Below are positions 31,016 through 39,367 of a DNA stretch of 51,680 nucleotides, in pieces; positions within the stretch are counted from its first letter, which is position 1; each line of letters starts with the position of its first letter. The DNA comes from Pyrococcus kukulkanii (GTDB lineage: Archaea; Methanobacteriota_B; Thermococci; Thermococcales; Thermococcaceae): contig NZ_JARRIB010000007.1 in assembly GCF_041647995.1 (NCBI RefSeq), positions 1 to 51,680 on the forward strand, given 5' to 3'. The notes under the pieces were generated by a model, which ran no database searches, was not told the DNA's origin, and saw only the letters and a list, made by a program, of their open reading frames with translations. A program made the translations under genes and the position numbers.

Positions 31016-31486
31016 TTGAAGTTCATAGCCACGTGCCCTCCGGGGAGGGAAGGAGATGCAATGCTCGAACTTGAGTGGGCGATAAACGCTCGGGTTAGGA
31101 GGACGAAGTGGGGTGGCGTGCTCCTAGGTGAGACCAACCTCGAGCGGGATGAAGCGGTAAGGAAGGTTAGGGAGTTCGAAACTTTTTCCCTTCAAAGCTT
31201 CATTCCCATAGATGATGTAGTTGACCTTGAGGATCTTGAGGAGAAAGTTAAAGAGATAAGGCTACCCCCAGGAAAGAGCTTTGCCGTGAGGGTTAAGGTC
31301 AGGGGGGCAAAGGTCGGGGAGAAGTCTCTTGAGAGAAAATTGGGTGGGATTATAAAGGCAGTAAACGGCAATCCGGTGAACCTTGAAAGGCCCGATGTCA
31401 TAATTATGGTTAACGTCCTTGGCAAAAAAGCTGGGATTTCAGTTCTAAGACCTGAGGAGATTGTTAAGAAAGAAGCTAGGGACTAA
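31016..31486 (+). CDS. THUMP domain RNA-binding protein
   Basis: A 156-residue stand-alone THUMP domain, a fold found at the N-terminus of ThiI and of tRNA methyltransferases where it grips the tRNA acceptor arm. Typical parts are CPPGREGDAMLELEWAI, the VRVKVRGAKVGEKSLERKLG strand-helix and NLERPDVIIMVNVLGKKAGI. Single-domain relatives in archaea partner with a separate modification enzyme, for example the Tan1-like proteins. TTG 31016 is accepted as start because GGAGGT lies seven bases upstream. It closes a two-gene unit with speB and overlaps the end of the frameshifted ATPase by four bases. Confidence 0.8.
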   Translation: MKFIATCPPGREGDAMLELEWAINARVRRTKWGGVLLGETNLERDEAVRKVREFETFSLQSFIPIDDVVDLEDLEEKVKEIRLPPGKSFAVRVKVRGAKVGEKSLERKLGGIIKAVNGNPVNLERPDVIIMVNVLGKKAGISVLRPEEIVKKEARD

Positions 31487-32471
31487 AGTTCGAGGCATGT
31501 CTTCCTGTAGATGGGATCAGATATGACGTACAGGTTCCCCTTCTTGGACACGAGGTAGAGCTTTTGTAAGGTAGTAAGGAACTTGTAGAGGCCTGACTTT
31601 GAGGGGCCAAGCTTTAAGAGCTCGCTCCACTTTGCTCCAAATGCCATAGCCCTTAAGACCTTCCTAGCCCATTCCGGCCTGTTTCTTAGTATATTTTCAA
31701 GTTCTCCCCTTGCTACCTTAACTCCTTCACCGATGGCCTCTTCTAGAGCCTTTTTATGGGGAATTCCAGTACATCTCCTCAGCTCGTAGAAGCTCAGCCA
31801 TCCTGGCAGGGTTCCCAACTCCTCAATAGTTTCTGAGAGCTCTTTGGAAGTAAACGGGGCATTACACTTCTTTAATCCTTTTTCAAGGAACTCAAGGGCA
31901 GTTTGTAAATCCCAGGGTCCAATTTCGATCTTTATTGGGCCCTCCCATACAGGGGATTTTGTGGGTCTAGATTGAGGAGCGAGTCCATAAGGCCAATCCC
32001 TGACCCCGTAAAGATGAATTCAACGTCTCTCCTCGTGTTCCTTACCAAAGACAGAATGTTAAGGAACTGGTTCACTCCCTGCTTTATGTCCTGAACTTCA
32101 TCGAACACGACAACTGCCTTTTTAAGTCCCAGGAGAACATCCTCTAGGATTGCTGAGGGTTTCTCGACTTCCCTTTCTACCTCTATCGGGCCTACCCTTA
32201 CCCTTTTTATACCCTTCATCTTTGATCTTCCTAATGCACTGAGTATCCTTAAAGTCACATTCCTCAGGTTTTCTGCTCCTTTGAAATTCACATAGAAGGT
32301 CTTCTTTTCCGTCAGGTTTGCCGATACAATAGCTAGACTTGTCTTTCCAGCCATTCTCGGCTCCAGGATGGCTACCCAGGCATTGTTTTTAAGTGCCTTT
32401 GTAATTGTTCTAAGTTCATCCTCCATATCAAACAACTCCTCTCTGTTATGGCAGGGGCCCTGAAGAAACAT
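31483..32471 (-). pseudogene. Archaeal AAA ATPase broken by a one-base frameshift
   Basis: Two frames together make one ATPase of about 330 residues related to the gene at 24505. The first frame (32471-31932) has MFLQGPCHNREELFD, Walker A EPRMAGKTSLAI, Walker B KKAVVVFDEVQDI and sensor FIFTGSGIGLMD, and stops after NPLYGRAQ. The second continues with IKIEIGPWDLQTALEFLEKG through to the winged-helix end KTCLEL. Adding one C to the CCC run (31937-31942 GGGCCC) restores GRAPIKIEIG and joins them exactly. The break is a single event in a short homopolymer, so it could be a true mutation, a sequencing error or programmed slippage. Two tandem palindromes precede the start codon. Confidence 0.85.
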
Positions 32472-32505: not shown

Positions 32506-33225
32506 TTACAACTTTGGCGGTACCAGATAGACCGTCTTGTCCTCCCCTATCCCCTTTATAAGCCCGCGGTGCCTCCTCACACAGCTCTCGCACTGTCCGC
32601 AGTGTATTGGCTTTCCATCTTCGGTGAATCCTTGGGGCATATAGCATGAGTTCGAATACTCGTACTTGGCATTTAGCTCTTTTAGCAGTTTGGCTATCCC
32701 CCTCTTATCCAGATTTATGAGGGGGGCAATGACCTTGACGGGGTTCATGGTTGCTAGCTCTAGTGCCTTGTTAATTCTCTCAACGAAGTCCTGGGTGTTG
32801 TCTGGGAATGTAACACCTTCTTCGGCGTTGAAGCCTACAATTATATCCCCTCCGCCCATTGCGTCAAGCAGAGAGGCGGCAACTGAAATCAAAACTAGAT
32901 TTCTCGCTGGAACCCACACTGCCTTGGCCGTTTCCTTGGCCCTCTCAACGTTTTCTAGCTCTTCCGCTGTTACCCTGGGAGTTTCTCCCCTCACCAATGT
33001 AGTTCCAGCTATCTTGGAGAACTCTTCGAGGAAGTCTAGTCTAATAATTTTCAGCGGAACGTTGAGTTCTTTAGAGAAGAATTCCGCTACCCTGTTTGTG
33101 ACTTTCTCCTCATTACTCCCATAGTTAACCGTGAGCATGATCACCTCTTCGTAATTCTTCTTTGCCCAGTAGAGGCAAGCTGTTGAATCTAATCCGCCCG
33201 AGAATAGGACTACTGCCCTCTTCAT
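32506..33225 (-). CDS. queC: 7-cyano-7-deazaguanine synthase
   Basis: A 239-residue PP-loop enzyme that makes preQ0, the precursor of archaeosine in tRNA. The ATP loop is [17 protein letters not shown]; the zinc site is the Cys cluster CYMPQGF...CGQCESC near residues 195-220. Length and both motifs match the family. GGGAGGGT lies just before the ATG, inside the end of the upstream membrane-protein frame, which overlaps it by 101 bp. The other archaeosine genes are not in this window. Confidence 0.93.
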
Positions 33226-34255
33226 TTCTTACCCTCCCACTCAGTATTGCTCCCATTATTGCCAATAATATCCTGTTATCTATTCCAGCGTCTATAGAAT
33301 ACACCAGGATTGAAATTGTGAAATTTAAAGACTCTTCCCTTATTTCACTTTCCCTTGCCATGATACCAATTAAGAAGCTTTCAATGATCCCCAGGATACC
33401 AAAATCAGCCACTGGTTGGCCGAATATTAAATAAGTATATCGTCCCTTACCACCAAGAAAAGTTGCGACAAGTCTTCTGGGATCTGGAGAAAAAAGTAGG
33501 CCTCCGTGATAAATCCCCCAAGGCATCCCCCTAACTGCAAGATTAGTAAACGTTAGGAACGTGAACCCGATTCTGACAAGTAGCTTTTCAATGTTTCCGC
33601 TAAGTATCAGTATTGCAATGCCAGCAATCCCCACGATGATGGTGTTCTTTGCCTTTACATCCCTCTTAGAGATAGAAAGAAGATATGCAACTGTTATCCA
33701 GAGGATGTATGACCTGAAAGTTCCAATGAAGAATATTGCGACCATCGTAAGAGTATAAACTAGTTTTATCCTTCGGTCTATGTTTGAGTATATTATGGCT
33801 ATTGTGCTCAAATATGCAGAGATCCCGAGGATCCCTGAGAACTCAAACCTAAGTGACTGGTTAAATAGTGGGACTCCAATGACTAGAAATGCAAGTATCG
33901 GAATTAAAAGGGAGCATGAGAAGGCAATGGGTACGCTTTTTGAATATACATCAACACCCTTTCTGTAAAAAAATAATAATATGAGGGCCATAACTGGGCC
34001 AATCGGGAAATATATGAAGGAGAACAATATAATTACTGCCTCATATACAACGTTTGGAATCTTAAACTTCCATATCTCCCAGCCGATATTCATGGCAAGA
34101 AAATTTAGAAGCAAGAGTGTCATTCCAACTGCCACTTCATGAGGTTTGTATCCCCTGGAATATATAACAGCCCTTATATCTTTATTTAAGAGTGTAAACG
34201 TTATAAGGAGCACGTAAAATATGAAGGTCGTGTTGAACACGTGGAATTTCCTCAT
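33125..34255 (-). CDS. Polytopic membrane protein of unknown function
   Basis: A 376-residue protein with roughly nine or ten membrane helices and short loops; no recognised motif apart from a conserved-looking luminal-type segment [21 protein letters not shown] near residues 255-275. The layout recalls oligosaccharide polymerases and ligases, and it sits head to head with an STT3-like gene, so a role in surface glycan assembly is a reasonable guess. ATG 34255 is preferred to an earlier GTG-type start that would enter the short divergent promoter. Its last 34 codons run over queC in another frame; a shift of reading frame would end it at the queC ATG as ATGA, so the 3' end may carry an indel. 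Confidence 0.65.
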
Positions 34256-34294
34256 CACTATTGAATTAGGCCGCACTTTAAAAAGGTGATTGCA

Positions 34295-36760
34295 ATGGGA
34301 AGGAAATTAAACCTTGGGATCGTCCTTCTAATCATAGCGTCCTTTATCGTTAGACTTATCCCTCATAGGATGATGGTCCTTGTTGTCTATGATGAATACC
34401 TTCATAGGGACATCACCCTCAGATTAGTTAGGGAGGGGATACTTTCAATTTCAAAGGATCCCCTGTCCTTGTTAGGACTTAAACCTTACAGTTATCCTCC
34501 TCTCTTCCACATAATTGGGGCATTATTGTATAAGTTTTTCCATACTGATTTACTATTCTATCTCCTCCCAGCTATATATGGCACCTTAGCTGTAATTGGA
34601 TTTTACTATGCCTTTGCCGAGATAGCTGGGAACAAAAGGGTTGCCTTAATTGCGGCAACTTTTTTGTCATTCTCTCCTAACTTTATATACAGAACGAGCC
34701 TTTATATTCCTGAGAATTTGGGTTTATTCCTATTTTCAGTGGCCTTATATTTCTTAGTTAAGTTCCTTAAGGGGGAGAAAGCTGGGTTGCCATATCTAAT
34801 TATCGTCCTTTTAATATACTCTATGACTCATAGGGGATGGCTATTTTTCGTAATCGTTGCAGGGATATTGATACTATCAAGGTACTGGGATGTGGTTAGT
34901 AGATATGTTCATATTTTGCTAGTCTTTGCCATAATCGGGTATCTTGCTTATAATTGGCTTCCAATAATTAAATCCACCATTGGAGGGCTTATTTCAAGGC
35001 TACAAAGAAGTGAGGTGAGCTTTCTTGGGTACTTTAAGTGGATAGGTGTTGTTCAGTTAGCACTTGGGGTTATGGCGACTAGAAGGTACCTGATGCAGGA
35101 TTGTATAAGGAGGGGAATAGCAATCTGGGCTTGGTCTTTTATGTTTGCTGGAGGGATGTCATTCAGATTTAGGGATCCATATGCCTCCATACCCTTGTCC
35201 TTAATGGCTTCGGAATTATTTCTTTATGAGATCTATCCAAATACTGGCCATTATTTAGCCATACTGTTTTCGAATGTTCGGGGATTTGGTTCTAGCATAT
35301 GTAAAAGTATCCCTGGGCAAAAGTGCGTTTCTATGCTTCTTAGTGGGTTAATGGTTGTAGCTCCTATTGTTCAGGGGGGATATGCCGCTTCAAACTATAT
35401 TAGCCCACCGACAATAGTCGATAAGGAGGCTTACCAGTGGATTATTAAAAATACGCCAGAAGATGCAACGATTCTTGTATGGTGGGATATGGGGTACCTA
35501 CTTATTGGAAATACCCATAGGAAGGATGTTGTTATATGGAAAAAGGTTTATCAGGGTTTCTTCACGGAAGCTCCCGAAACAAAAGAAGCCAAGCGAGCAT
35601 ATATGGATCATGTTATCATGTTTGCTTCAAATCAGAGGCAGAGGGTGTATTACCTGCTGAAGAAATACAACGTTAGTTATGTATTTGTTGACAGAATAAG
35701 GCTATCTTATGGTTTTGTAAAATATGGTCTTATGGAGTACGCTCCATATGATCCACATTTTAGGCTTGAATTTTGCAATGGCAATTCGCAGATATACAGA
35801 TTTATTCCAGATCCTCCAATAAAACCTAACAAAATCGATCCTCTCGCTCCTAATGGGATGTTTTCTCCACTGGTATCATTTCTAGAACAGTTCTGGACGG
35901 GCTACAATTATGCTGATTATGATGATTCATATAAAGCGTACTTTAACTTAAACGCTTGGATTGCTAGGATGTACTATGAACTTTATAAAATGTCGGGAAA
36001 TAGAGATTTTGAAGAAAGATATAGGTGGCTACTTAAATGGTTAGTATATAAGAGGATGGATGATGGCTCTTATCCGTGGGGAGTTCCCCCAAACAATTAC
36101 ACCTTATACACGGCATATACTATTGAGCCCCTCAAAGGCTTAAACGTACCTGAAATTGAGAAAAGTCTTGAGTTCCTAAAGTTAAGGGAAAAAGAAGATT
36201 ACTTCATGACAACTAGTAAGGATAAAAAGGGCTCTCTTGTTATTGATGCTTTATTGCTCCCAATATATAAGGAATTTGGTATCCTAAACAATGTTACTGA
36301 GGCTAATATATTGAACAAGCTCCTTCAAGCTCAAAAAGATGATGGGAGCTGGAATGAAAATATTGGGACAACGATAGCAATCGCAAGTGGGTTGGCAAGG
36401 TACTATCAAATAACTAAAAATCACACAGTTTTAGTCTCTGTAAAAAAAGCTGCTAAGTGGCTTATGGAGAATATAGAAGATGATGGTAGGTTAAAGCTTG
36501 AGGGGGTTGGGTATACATACTCCAGGGTGACTTACGCTCAACTAGCTTTCATTTTCCATGTTGCTGGATATTATGAACTGAGGGATCTTGAACTAAAATT
36601 CATAAGGGAAACTTATGATCCAAATAAAGAACCTAGGCCATTGGATTCCCTAGTAGGGATATATAGGTATCTCTCTTACATTTACAATTATGAGCAGGGG
36701 TTGTACTTTGTCAATGATCTTGTTAAAGAGCACAAGCTTTTGAAGTTTAGCCCAATTTAG
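34295..36760 (+). CDS. STT3/AglB-like GT-C membrane protein with C-terminal alpha/alpha-repeat domain
   Basis: An 821-residue protein. Residues 1-380 hold about eleven membrane helices with the acidic first loop YDEYLHRD (Asp33) and YIPENLGLFLF, as in GT-C glycosyltransferases. The soluble part starts with WWDMGYLL (Trp396), the counterpart of the STT3 WWDYG substrate-binding motif. From about residue 540 it changes to helical repeats with DDGSYPWG, KDDGSWNEN and EDDGRLKLEG, the pattern of terpenoid-cyclase or six-hairpin toroids. It likely transfers a glycan to an outer-face acceptor, but it is not the canonical AglB. ATG 34295 has GGTGAT; only 39 bp separate it from the divergent membrane gene. 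Confidence 0.75.
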   Translation: MGRKLNLGIVLLIIASFIVRLIPHRMMVLVVYDEYLHRDITLRLVREGILSISKDPLSLLGLKPYSYPPLFHIIGALLYKFFHTDLLFYLLPAIYGTLAVIGFYYAFAEIAGNKRVALIAATFLSFSPNFIYRTSLYIPENLGLFLFSVALYFLVKFLKGEKAGLPYLIIVLLIYSMTHRGWLFFVIVAGILILSRYWDVVSRYVHILLVFAIIGYLAYNWLPIIKSTIGGLISRLQRSEVSFLGYFKWIGVVQLALGVMATRRYLMQDCIRRGIAIWAWSFMFAGGMSFRFRDPYASIPLSLMASELFLYEIYPNTGHYLAILFSNVRGFGSSICKSIPGQKCVSMLLSGLMVVAPIVQGGYAASNYISPPTIVDKEAYQWIIKNTPEDATILVWWDMGYLLIGNTHRKDVVIWKKVYQGFFTEAPETKEAKRAYMDHVIMFASNQRQRVYYLLKKYNVSYVFVDRIRLSYGFVKYGLMEYAPYDPHFRLEFCNGNSQIYRFIPDPPIKPNKIDPLAPNGMFSPLVSFLEQFWTGYNYADYDDSYKAYFNLNAWIARMYYELYKMSGNRDFEERYRWLLKWLVYKRMDDGSYPWGVPPNNYTLYTAYTIEPLKGLNVPEIEKSLEFLKLREKEDYFMTTSKDKKGSLVIDALLLPIYKEFGILNNVTEANILNKLLQAQKDDGSWNENIGTTIAIASGLARYYQITKNHTVLVSVKKAAKWLMENIEDDGRLKLEGVGYTYSRVTYAQLAFIFHVAGYYELRDLELKFIRETYDPNKEPRPLDSLVGIYRYLSYIYNYEQGLYFVNDLVKEHKLLKFSPI

Positions 36761-36862: not shown

Positions 36863-36910
36863 GTTCTTTCTTTATCACTCTCGGTTATTCTCAGCTGGAG
36901 GTGAATGGAA

Positions 36911-39367
36911 ATGGCCTACAAGTTCATAAAGTGGTTTGAGGAACTCAGTAAAGAAGATGTGCCACTTGTTGGTGGTAAGGGAGCGAATCTCGGTGAAATG
37001 ACAAGGGCTGGCATTCCAGTTCCGCCGGGATTCTGTGTTACGGCTGAGGCATATAAGTACTTTGTTGAGAATGTTAAGGTTTCTAAGGAAGATATTAAGA
37101 GGATCCTTGGGGAAAAGGCTAACAAGGGAACTATAGCTGAAGTTCTCGCCCAGGCTCCTGACGAGCCGAGGGTTCTCCAGGAGTGGATTATGGACATAAT
37201 CGGCAGAACTAACGTTGATGACTCAAAGCAGCTCCAGGAGAATACTGAGGTAATTAGAGAGCTCATAAAGGCCCTTGACATGCCCCCAGAGATCGCAGAT
37301 GAGATCAAGCAGGCTTACAGGGAGCTCAGCCAGAGGTTCGGTCAGGAGGAGGTTTACGTTGCCGTAAGATCATCAGCTACCGCTGAGGATCTCCCAGAGG
37401 CTTCATTCGCCGGTCAGCAGGAGACCTACCTTGACGTTCTTGGTGCTGACGATGTTATCGACAAGGTGAAGAAGTGCTGGGCCTCACTCTGGACTGCAAG
37501 GGCAACCTTCTACAGGGCCAAGCAGGGCTTCGACCACAGCAAGGTCTACCTCTCAGCTGTAGTTCAGAAGATGGTCAACAGCGAGAAGAGCGGTGTCATG
37601 TTCACCGCTAACCCGGTTACCAACGACAGGAACGAGATAATGATCAACGCTTCCTGGGGCCTTGGTGAGGCTGTAGTTAGTGGTGCCGTAACCCCCGATG
37701 AGTACATCGTCGAGAAGGGCACCTGGAAGATTAAGGAGAAGGTCATTGCAAAGAAGGAGGTCATGGTCATCAGGAACCCTGAGACCGGTAAGGGAACCGT
37801 CATGGTTAAGGTAGCTGAGCACCTTGGCCCAGAGTGGGTTGAGAAGCAGGTTCTTACTGACGAGCAGATAATTGAAGTTGCGAAGATGGGCCAAAAGATT
37901 GAAGAGCACTACGGCTGGCCGCAGGACATTGAGTGGGCTTATGACAAGGACGACGGCAAGCTTTACATCGTTCAGTCAAGACCTGTCACAACCCTTAAAG
38001 AGGAGGAGGCTGCTGGTGAGGAGGTAGAGGAAGTTGAGGAGGCAGAGGTCATCCTCAAGGGTCTTGGTGCCTCACCAGGAATTGGTGCAGGTAGGGTTGT
38101 AGTTATATTCGATGCAAGCGAGATCGACAAGGTCAAGGAAGGAGATGTTCTCGTTACAACAATGACCAACCCAGACATGGTTCCAGCGATGAAGAGGGCC
38201 GCTGCAATCATTACCGACGAGGGTGGAAGGACGAGCCACGCTGCAATAGTTTCAAGAGAGCTCGGAATTCCATGTGTCGTTGGTACCAAGGAGGCAACCA
38301 AGAAGCTCAAGACCGGAATGTACGTTACAGTTGACGGTGCGAGAGGTCTCGTTTACAAGGGAATCGTCAAGAGCCTAGTCAAGAAGGAGGAGGAGGCTAA
38401 GGCTGAGGCCGCTGGAGGAGCAGTTGCTGCCGCGCCATTGGTCACTGGAACACTCATCAAGGTCAACGTTTCAATGCCTGAGGTTGCTGAGAGGGCTGCA
38501 GCTACTGGAGCTGATGGTGTAGGACTACTTAGGGCTGAGCACATGATTCTCAGCATCGGTCAGCACCCGATCAAGTTTATCAGGGAAGGCAAGGAGGAGG
38601 AGCTTGTTGAGAGGCTTGCTGAGGGAATTGAGAAGGTTGCAGCAGCATTCTATCCAAGGCCAGTTTGGTACAGAACCCTTGACGCTCCAACCAATGAGTT
38701 CAGGGAGATGCCTGGTGGAGAGGACGAGCCAGAAGAGAGAAACCCAATGCTTGGATGGAGAGGCATCAGGAGAGGTCTTGATCAGCCGGAGCTTCTCAGG
38801 GCCGAGTTCAAGGCCATCAAGAAGGTCGTTGAGAAGGGCTACAACAACATTGGTGTAATGCTACCACTCGTTAGCCACCCAGAGCAGATAAGGAAGGCCA
38901 AGGAGATAGCTAGAGAGGTTGGTCTTGAGCCACACAAGGACGTTGCTTGGGGTGTCATGATCGAGGTTCCAGCTGCGGCAATAATTATCGAGGATCTCGT
39001 CAAGGAGGGAATCGACTTCATCAGCTTTGGAACTAACGACCTGACCCAGTACACGCTCGCAATTGACAGGGACAACGAGAGGGTTGCCAAGCTCTATGAT
39101 GAGACCCACCCAGCAGTGCTCAAGTTAATCAAGCACGTCATTAAGGTCTGTAAGAAGTACGGAGTCGAGACCAGCATCTGCGGACAGGCCGGAAGTGATC
39201 CGAAGATGGCAAGAATACTTGTCAGGCTTGGTATTGACAGCATCTCAGCCAACCCAGATGCAGTGCAGCTAATCAGGCAGGTAGTTGCTCAGGAAGAGAG
39301 GAAGCTCATGCTCGAGGCTGCAAGGAGGCAGCTCTTCGAGGAAGAGGAAGAAGAGGATCTCTTCTGA
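36911..39367 (+). CDS. ppsA: Phosphoenolpyruvate synthase
   Basis: An 818-residue enzyme that interconverts pyruvate and phosphoenolpyruvate with ATP/AMP, central to gluconeogenesis and abundant in Pyrococcus. The N-terminal ATP-binding domain has VGGKGANLGEM and VAVRSSATAEDLPEASFAGQ; the swivelling domain carries the phosphorylated His443 in GGRTSHAAIVSRE; the PEP-binding barrel ends with SICGQAGSDP (Cys757). An Ala/Glu-rich linker lies near residues 495-512. GGAGGTGA sits two bases before a first ATG and eight before the second, so ATG 36911 (MAYKFIKWF) is used. Codon use is strongly biased to C/G-ending codons, the mark of high expression. It stands alone with its own promoter. Confidence 0.96.
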   Translation: MAYKFIKWFEELSKEDVPLVGGKGANLGEMTRAGIPVPPGFCVTAEAYKYFVENVKVSKEDIKRILGEKANKGTIAEVLAQAPDEPRVLQEWIMDIIGRTNVDDSKQLQENTEVIRELIKALDMPPEIADEIKQAYRELSQRFGQEEVYVAVRSSATAEDLPEASFAGQQETYLDVLGADDVIDKVKKCWASLWTARATFYRAKQGFDHSKVYLSAVVQKMVNSEKSGVMFTANPVTNDRNEIMINASWGLGEAVVSGAVTPDEYIVEKGTWKIKEKVIAKKEVMVIRNPETGKGTVMVKVAEHLGPEWVEKQVLTDEQIIEVAKMGQKIEEHYGWPQDIEWAYDKDDGKLYIVQSRPVTTLKEEEAAGEEVEEVEEAEVILKGLGASPGIGAGRVVVIFDASEIDKVKEGDVLVTTMTNPDMVPAMKRAAAIITDEGGRTSHAAIVSRELGIPCVVGTKEATKKLKTGMYVTVDGARGLVYKGIVKSLVKKEEEAKAEAAGGAVAAAPLVTGTLIKVNVSMPEVAERAAATGADGVGLLRAEHMILSIGQHPIKFIREGKEEELVERLAEGIEKVAAAFYPRPVWYRTLDAPTNEFREMPGGEDEPEERNPMLGWRGIRRGLDQPELLRAEFKAIKKVVEKGYNNIGVMLPLVSHPEQIRKAKEIAREVGLEPHKDVAWGVMIEVPAAAIIIEDLVKEGIDFISFGTNDLTQYTLAIDRDNERVAKLYDETHPAVLKLIKHVIKVCKKYGVETSICGQAGSDPKMARILVRLGIDSISANPDAVQLIRQVVAQEERKLMLEAARRQLFEEEEEEDLF

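Follow-up and report, generated by a model that had tools for sequence, protein, structure and literature searches.

The gene at 34295-36760 (+) of the window, the whole 51,680-nucleotide stretch of DNA that was analysed, encodes one protein that joins a GT-C/STT3-like glycosyltransferase to an (alpha/alpha)6 toroid. Together with a divergently transcribed gene for an O-antigen-polymerase (Wzy)-like membrane protein it makes up a cassette, here called cassette A, at a chromosomal slot that other Thermococcaceae fill differently. The new element is the outer toroid on a GT-C/STT3 enzyme, within a glycan system that had already been predicted. The proposed reading, which is given about an even chance of being correct, is that the fusion would be an extracytoplasmic GT-C transferase with a glycan as its acceptor, that the toroid would hold this acceptor, and that the enzyme would form a two-gene surface-glycan module with the Wzy-like protein at the exchange slot.

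Read from an upstream GTG, the fusion gene forms a single uninterrupted frame (824 codons, window positions 34286-36760, +). The ATG at 34295, which gives a protein of 821 amino acids, appears to be the better start because a ribosome-binding-like GGTGAT precedes it. Residue numbers for the fusion protein are counted from the GTG (824 amino acids), not from the ATG. The features of the gene are as follows:

34295 to 36760, plus strand: fusion of a GT-C/STT3-like glycosyltransferase and an (alpha/alpha)6 toroid, from the ORF, AlphaFold2, Foldseek, hhalign and full-length homologues.
34286 to 35395, plus strand: membrane (GT-C) region, residues 1-370, from AlphaFold2 helices and hhalign to the AglB family.
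34391 to 34393, plus strand: D36, invariant, in YDEYLH, aligned to the first-DXD catalytic Asp of STT3/AglB.
34712 to 34714, plus strand: E143, invariant (IPEN/IPES/IPEG), aligned to the second-DXD acid.
35396 to 35803, plus strand: STT3-like extracytoplasmic core, residues ~371-506, from PDB sequence searches, structure matches and hhalign.
35480 to 35497, plus strand: WWDMGY motif, residues 399-404, with WW in Thermococcaceae only and an acid at 401 in all members.
35513 to 35557, plus strand: family signature TxRKDxxxWKxxYxG, residues 410-424, standing where AglB has its DGGK region.
35864 to 36730, plus strand: (alpha/alpha)6 toroid, residues ~527-815, from AlphaFold2, Foldseek and Pfam toroid families.
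35885 to 35935, plus strand: most conserved toroid element, E534..W537..Y542.(D/E)544.....(K/R)550, from the family alignment.

AlphaFold2, supplied with a 16-sequence alignment, gave a whole-protein model with a pLDDT of 84.9. In it the C-terminal part (residues 553-815, pLDDT mostly 90-98) consists of six hairpins built from twelve helices, and the C-terminal domain modelled alone reached a pLDDT of 89.3 and a pTM of 0.90. The DG(S/x) turns of the C-terminus are DDGSY at 592-596, DDGSW at 685-689 and DDGR at 732-735. The original prediction, made from the letters of the window, was of an STT3-like enzyme fused to an alpha/alpha toroid at 34295-36760, and it is borne out by the ORF, the AlphaFold2 models, structure matches and hhalign. 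The GT-C and WWDxG features that it assigned to the membrane part also hold, with STT3 matches in the membrane region and core and WWDMGY at 399-404. The outer region from residue 400 to 821 does contain a toroid, which in the model begins near residue 527 and not at 400. Residues ~371-506 form an ordinary STT3-like core, and the six-hairpin toroid comes after it.

Beyond the window, the full-length fusion is present in Thermococcaceae, Methanobacteriota and Aenigmatarchaeota, as shown by the search in other archaea that the original prediction had proposed. Homologues occur in 40 of 94 Thermococcaceae genomes, where full-length copies are mostly 50-60% identical, in 16 of 152 Methanobacteriota genomes (34-36% identity) and in four genomes of Aenigmatarchaeota (29-32%). 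Relatives were confined to these three groups in a scan of 84,980 species that used two exact peptide patterns, which limits what could match. A chance or mis-assembled fusion is ruled out because the identical full-length arrangement is conserved across three archaeal lineages at 29-60% identity. Judged by these homologues, the GT-C/toroid fusion has been retained in distantly related lineages and is patchily distributed.

Some individual copies are damaged. The closest relative, from the same genus (L026, 6952-9425, genome G003), has a frameshift near residues 121-138 beside an intact Wzy-like partner. In genome G275 (1,751,377 bp; L119, 7266-9649) the membrane-plus-core ORF and the toroid ORF are separate near the domain boundary, which is most simply read as a frameshift. 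An internal stop apparent in several homologues proved to be an artefact of strand and C-terminus. A candidate fusion paralogue in genome G022 (L076, 7183-9438) was rejected; it is a secreted protein of 751 amino acids with squalene-cyclase-like toroid repeats, and its gene adjoins an FtsZ/CetZ-like gene.

The membrane region and core are a divergent relative of AglB/STT3, either descended from that family or sister to it. Profile comparison with hhalign aligned the fusion to canonical archaeal AglB through the membrane region and into the core, as far as about residue 413 (probability 99.8%, E 1.2e-28), and found no counterpart of the toroid in AglB. For the whole model the best Foldseek matches were STT3/AglB/PglB (human STT3A, E 7.5e-11), the fold matches of the core include the C-terminal domain of AfAglB-S2 (3vu0, TMt 0.61), and PDB sequence searches matched STT3 in the WWDMGY region and the membrane region. 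Features shared with AglB, STT3 and PglB are the GT-C fold, the Asp of the first DXD motif, an acid at the second-DXD position, the outer core and, in Thermococcaceae, WWDxG. D36, invariant in 14 of 14 members, aligns with the EL1 catalytic Asp; the second-DXD position in EL2 holds a single acid, E143, and the AglBs of Thermococcales likewise have one acid there (RGD/RGE). R294/R296 and D297 are also invariant in the family alignment. The membrane region is shorter in the fusion, at ~370 residues versus ~500 in AglB/STT3.

In Pfam, PF02516 (STT3) does not match the window protein at the curated cut-off and matches two of the 16 family members at E <= 1 (best 5.3e-10). PMT_2 (PMT/GT39; PF13231, PF02366) scored 23.9 bits for the window protein, below its cut-off of 26.1, and Glyco_transf_22 (PF03901, ALG9-like) scored 29.9 bits against a cut-off of 23.8, over residues 64-217 only and in one of the 16 members. 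The PMT/ArnT/ALG enzymes behind these weak matches share with the fusion the GT-C fold and an acidic catalytic residue within the first outer loop, but they have neither an STT3-type outer core nor a toroid, and the profile similarity of the fusion is to AglB.

In known enzymes TIXE, WWDYG and DK/MI recognise the N-X-S/T sequon (PMC8342417), and DGGK is the presumed binding site for the lipid-linked glycan (PMC8342417; PMC3703281). In the family alignment TIXE/SVSE is absent from EL5, which is a short loop (R238...V244) with no conserved Glu and, in the homologue at L041, no acid at all. Neither DK/MI nor DGGK was found in alignments judged by eye, there is no D-x-x-K on the following helix, and the invariant TxRKDxxxWKxxYxG occupies the DGGK place. 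At the WWDYG position all Thermococcaceae members seen have an intact WWDxG, as WWD(M/V/L)GY, and the other lineages have MKDEAY, TMDDAY or TWKEEGY. Canonical AglB-like proteins of Methanobacteriaceae (L085, L087, L088, L094 and L095) themselves carry degenerate forms of WWDYG (GWGHG, QWSYG, DWGYG, DWSYG and DWIHG). Loss of WWD is weak evidence because canonical AglBs of Methanobacteriota are also degenerate there.

The fusion further differs from AglB/STT3/PglB, beyond these motifs, its own signature and the extra toroid, in that it co-exists with canonical AglB. The genome of the window has two canonical STT3/AglB genes besides the fusion, and the PF02516 search matched eight of nine other carrier genomes; for one of these eight, the better of two matches was to the fusion, and the second was to L096, an AglB-like protein that stays below the cut-off. 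The idea that the fusion is the sole oligosaccharyltransferase of DPANN genomes was discarded, as two of three carriers have a canonical STT3. Ordinary sequon-directed N-glycosylation by the fusion is disfavoured because TIXE, DK and DGGK are missing. The acceptor of what would be an STT3-derived GT-C enzyme is probably not a sequon, and an extra transferase acting on a glycan is suggested because the sequon motifs are lost and a canonical STT3/AglB is present in nearly all carriers checked.

A rather unlikely alternative is that the fusion is an additional true oligosaccharyltransferase, which would transfer a complete lipid-linked glycan to S-layer or other surface proteins. The Wzy-like partner would help to make this glycan, and the toroid would guide either the glycan or the protein. 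STT3 is its closest relative in both fold and profile, archaeal genomes often hold several AglB paralogues (PMC3703281), and the operon of Aenigmatarchaeota described below adjoins an S-layer_C gene. The full retention of WWDxG in Thermococcaceae also counts against a glycan acceptor, and a peptide acceptor there would fit. This alternative is opposed by the absence of TIXE, DK and DGGK, by the loss of WW in two of the three lineages and by the canonical AglB already present.

The toroid gives Foldseek matches to class II terpene cyclases, TED, GH76, GH88 and epimerases, with TM-scores of about 0.5-0.6 at best. The (alpha/alpha)6 fold is common to it and to these families as well as GH127 and PL10. 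Pfam toroid families match weakly in up to 12 of the 16 members, with GH127, GH88, Pec_lyase and C5-epimerase (C5-epim_C) appearing in some of them; in the window protein no specific toroid enzyme family, and for the toroid no glycosidase family, was matched above the curated cut-off. The family alignment shows no conserved Cys or His column in the toroid, and the Thermococcaceae toroids have no Cys at all. The window protein has a D-x-D-D string at 544-547, but across the family DxDD is unconserved. Sites of the GH127, TED, LanC, prenyltransferase and class II cyclase kinds, catalytic or metal-binding, are excluded because neither Cys, His nor DxDD is kept among the members, and in this respect the toroid is unlike several toroid enzyme families. 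The positions that are invariant or conserved in type are E534, W537, Y542, D/E544, K/R550, R578, W585, Y706, Y707 and Y750. Of these, E534, W537, Y542, D/E544, K/R550, W585, Y706, Y707 and Y750 are charged or aromatic residues conserved in all three lineages; E534 is invariant, position 544 always acidic and position 550 always basic. A test for higher conservation on one toroid face found no clear difference (2.79 versus 2.69 bits).

These conserved charged and aromatic residues would fit sugar binding, and a glycan-binding toroid is the most economical reading of the alignment. The aromatics can also be structural, as in the QxxDGSW-type repeats of squalene cyclases. Another possibility is a bifunctional enzyme in which the toroid, as a hydrolase, lyase or epimerase, would trim or modify the glycan on which the GT-C part acts. 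It would be in keeping with a fold like that of GH76, GH88, cellobiose 2-epimerase and PL10, with the weak Pfam matches that some members give (GH127, Pec_lyase and C5-epimerase), and with E534 and the fixed charges at 544 and 550. It is judged unlikely, given that no specific toroid enzyme family matches the window protein above a curated cut-off and that neither the Cys/His sites of GH127, TED, LanC and prenyltransferases nor the cyclase DxDD is conserved; the glycan trimming suggested at the outset is not supported by this evidence.

The terpenoid cyclase reading, also raised at the outset, is rejected on the unconserved DxDD. Class II terpene cyclases are the top Foldseek matches of the toroid and the QxxDGSW turns resemble squalene cyclase repeats, but TM-scores of 0.5-0.6 reflect only the shared superfamily fold, the window protein's D-x-D-D is not a family feature, and the domain comes after an STT3-type core whose counterparts in known enzymes are extracytoplasmic. 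It is highly improbable that the toroid works on the lipid carrier as a class II terpenoid cyclase or prenyl-binding domain. The glycan-binding reading of the toroid is retained in what follows.

The second gene of cassette A and the region that it shares with the fusion gene are:

33125 to 34255, minus strand: divergent partner, a PF01901 O-antigen-polymerase (Wzy)-like membrane protein (Pfam E 3.4e-13), whose ORF extends to a GTG at 34276.
34256 to 34294, no strand: divergent intergenic region of about 40 bp shared by the fusion and partner genes, with one TATA-like element (CTTTAAAAA).

The partner scores 50.1 bits against PF01901, above the cut-off of 24.2, and the two start codons lie ~40 bp apart in the window. 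A Wzy-like gene of the same subfamily stands head-to-head with the fusion, at a nearly constant gap, in all 37 Thermococcaceae carriers with intact context, which upholds the suggested partnership with the divergent polymerase-like membrane protein; the other three of the 40 carriers hold fragments with no neighbouring Wzy-like gene. No intact copy of the partner's PF01901 subfamily was found in non-carrier Thermococcaceae. The partner is tandemly duplicated in one genus (L025, 8609-10732; L080, 14019-16150). In Aenigmatarchaeota a PF01901 gene lies two genes downstream of the fusion in an operon-like run that also holds a GT4, a Wzx-like flippase, a PF00953 phosphoglycosyltransferase and a DUF354 gene, and an S-layer_C gene adjoins it. 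In several Methanobacteriota the fusion gene comes after a gene of the geranylgeranyl-reductase family. The Wzy-like gene is not adjacent to the fusion in Methanobacteriota, and co-occurrence with PF01901 is uninformative there, as PF01901 is present in all 24 genomes tested, carriers and non-carriers.

Cassette A consists of the GT-C/toroid gene and the Wzy-like gene and fills the slot at 33125-36760 of the window, between two flanking genes:

36905 to 39367, plus strand: PEP synthase, the fixed slot boundary (flank, outside the system).
32506 to 33225, minus strand: QueC, the other slot boundary in the genus of the window (flank).

Across Thermococcaceae, cassette A has PEP synthase on one side; the other side is taken by QueC, by an M20 peptidase or by a subtilase. 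An AAA ATPase gene of the window lies in two frames (31483-32471, minus strand) and is read as frameshifted because its 329-amino-acid homologue at L026, 4148-5137, is intact. Seven non-carriers inspected have a different cassette in the slot, cassette B. It encodes two PF01901 proteins and a TrmB-like sugar-binding protein, as a rule together with a PMT-like GT-C enzyme; the sugar-binding-like protein has an N-terminal hydrophobic segment. Cassette B matches the arCOG03206/arCOG03414/PMT-like archaeal Wzy-type cluster, which has been predicted to serve glycosylation (Makarova et al., 2015; PMC5898192). Both cassettes combine PF01901 Wzy-like proteins and a GT-C enzyme, have a predicted surface-glycan function and use a common chromosomal slot; B differs in its two PF01901 genes, its TrmB-like protein and its lack of a GT-C/toroid fusion. 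A PMT-like gene is also present in some A loci.

By PF01901 subfamily count, A is present in 40, B in 39 and both in none of the 94 Thermococcaceae genomes, against an expected overlap of 16.6 (hypergeometric 2e-14, a figure that ignores the relatedness of the genomes). Three genera include genomes of both kinds. On inspection of the slot, eight of the remaining fifteen genomes proved to have it empty, with the subtilase directly adjoining PEP synthase. Loci for the slot states across Thermococcaceae, which are A, B (with or without the PMT-like gene) and empty, are L129, L130-L136 and L137-L144. In genome G020 (L129) a complete cassette B lies between remnants of A, with the final 38 codons of the fusion to one side and the final 157 codons of the partner to the other, and the flanks are ~93.5-94% identical in DNA to a carrier. 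This arrangement is direct evidence of a replacement of A by B with breakpoints inside both A genes. A literature search, with most subscription papers beyond reach, found no description of the GT-C/toroid fusion or of the A/B cassette exchange. The specialised glycosylation system of the original prediction stands in outline as a surface-glycan system, seen in the exchangeable Wzy-like/GT-C cassette and in the lipid-linked-glycan operon beside an S-layer gene in Aenigmatarchaeota.

In the proposed mechanism, homology and the operon partners suggest a polyprenyl-phosphate-linked sugar or oligosaccharide as the donor, and the D36/E143 site would perform the transfer. The acceptor would be a surface glycan, either growing or lipid-linked, and not an Asn-X-Ser/Thr sequon, the toroid would bind and position this glycan outside the membrane, and the Wzy-like partner may extend or ligate the same glycan. 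The two proteins would form a surface-glycan module that is exchanged at a fixed chromosomal slot. A glycan transferase is favoured because of the AglB/STT3 homology in profile, sequence and fold and the invariance of D36, E143, R294/R296 and D297, and because of the Wzy-like linkage, the Aenigmatarchaeota operon, slot swapping with B, empty slots and the G020 remnants. The assignments of donor, acceptor, toroid function and role of the glycan are inferred from these observations.

One parallel is suggestive: cassette B pairs a membrane Wzy-like protein with a separate sugar-binding-like protein, and cassette A pairs a membrane GT-C enzyme with a fused outer domain. Mycobacterial AftD (6wby), which is among the weak fold matches of the fusion model, is likewise a GT-C transferase with large extracytoplasmic domains, although no family relationship is claimed and its outer domains are beta-type modules instead of an alpha/alpha toroid. 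The outer carbohydrate-binding modules of AftD are thought to hold the glycan acceptor.

A broader interpretation, held tentatively and at somewhat less than an even chance, is that an oligosaccharyltransferase-derived enzyme has swapped sequon recognition for a built-in toroid glycan reader and a Wzy-like partner, at a locus exchanged among at least two cassettes and an empty state, with a genetic logic like that of bacterial O-antigen or capsule switching. The fusion would represent an STT3/AglB-like lineage that has kept the catalytic acids, no longer has the motifs for reading a sequon and has acquired a large outer domain, and it can show how a protein-glycosylating enzyme switches acceptor. 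The strict linkage of the two genes makes the fusion/Wzy-like pair suited to reconstitution. For hyperthermophilic archaea little is known of glycan switching or of the part that it may play in virus adsorption, and the exchangeable cassette provides a concrete locus for surface-glycan variation in these organisms.
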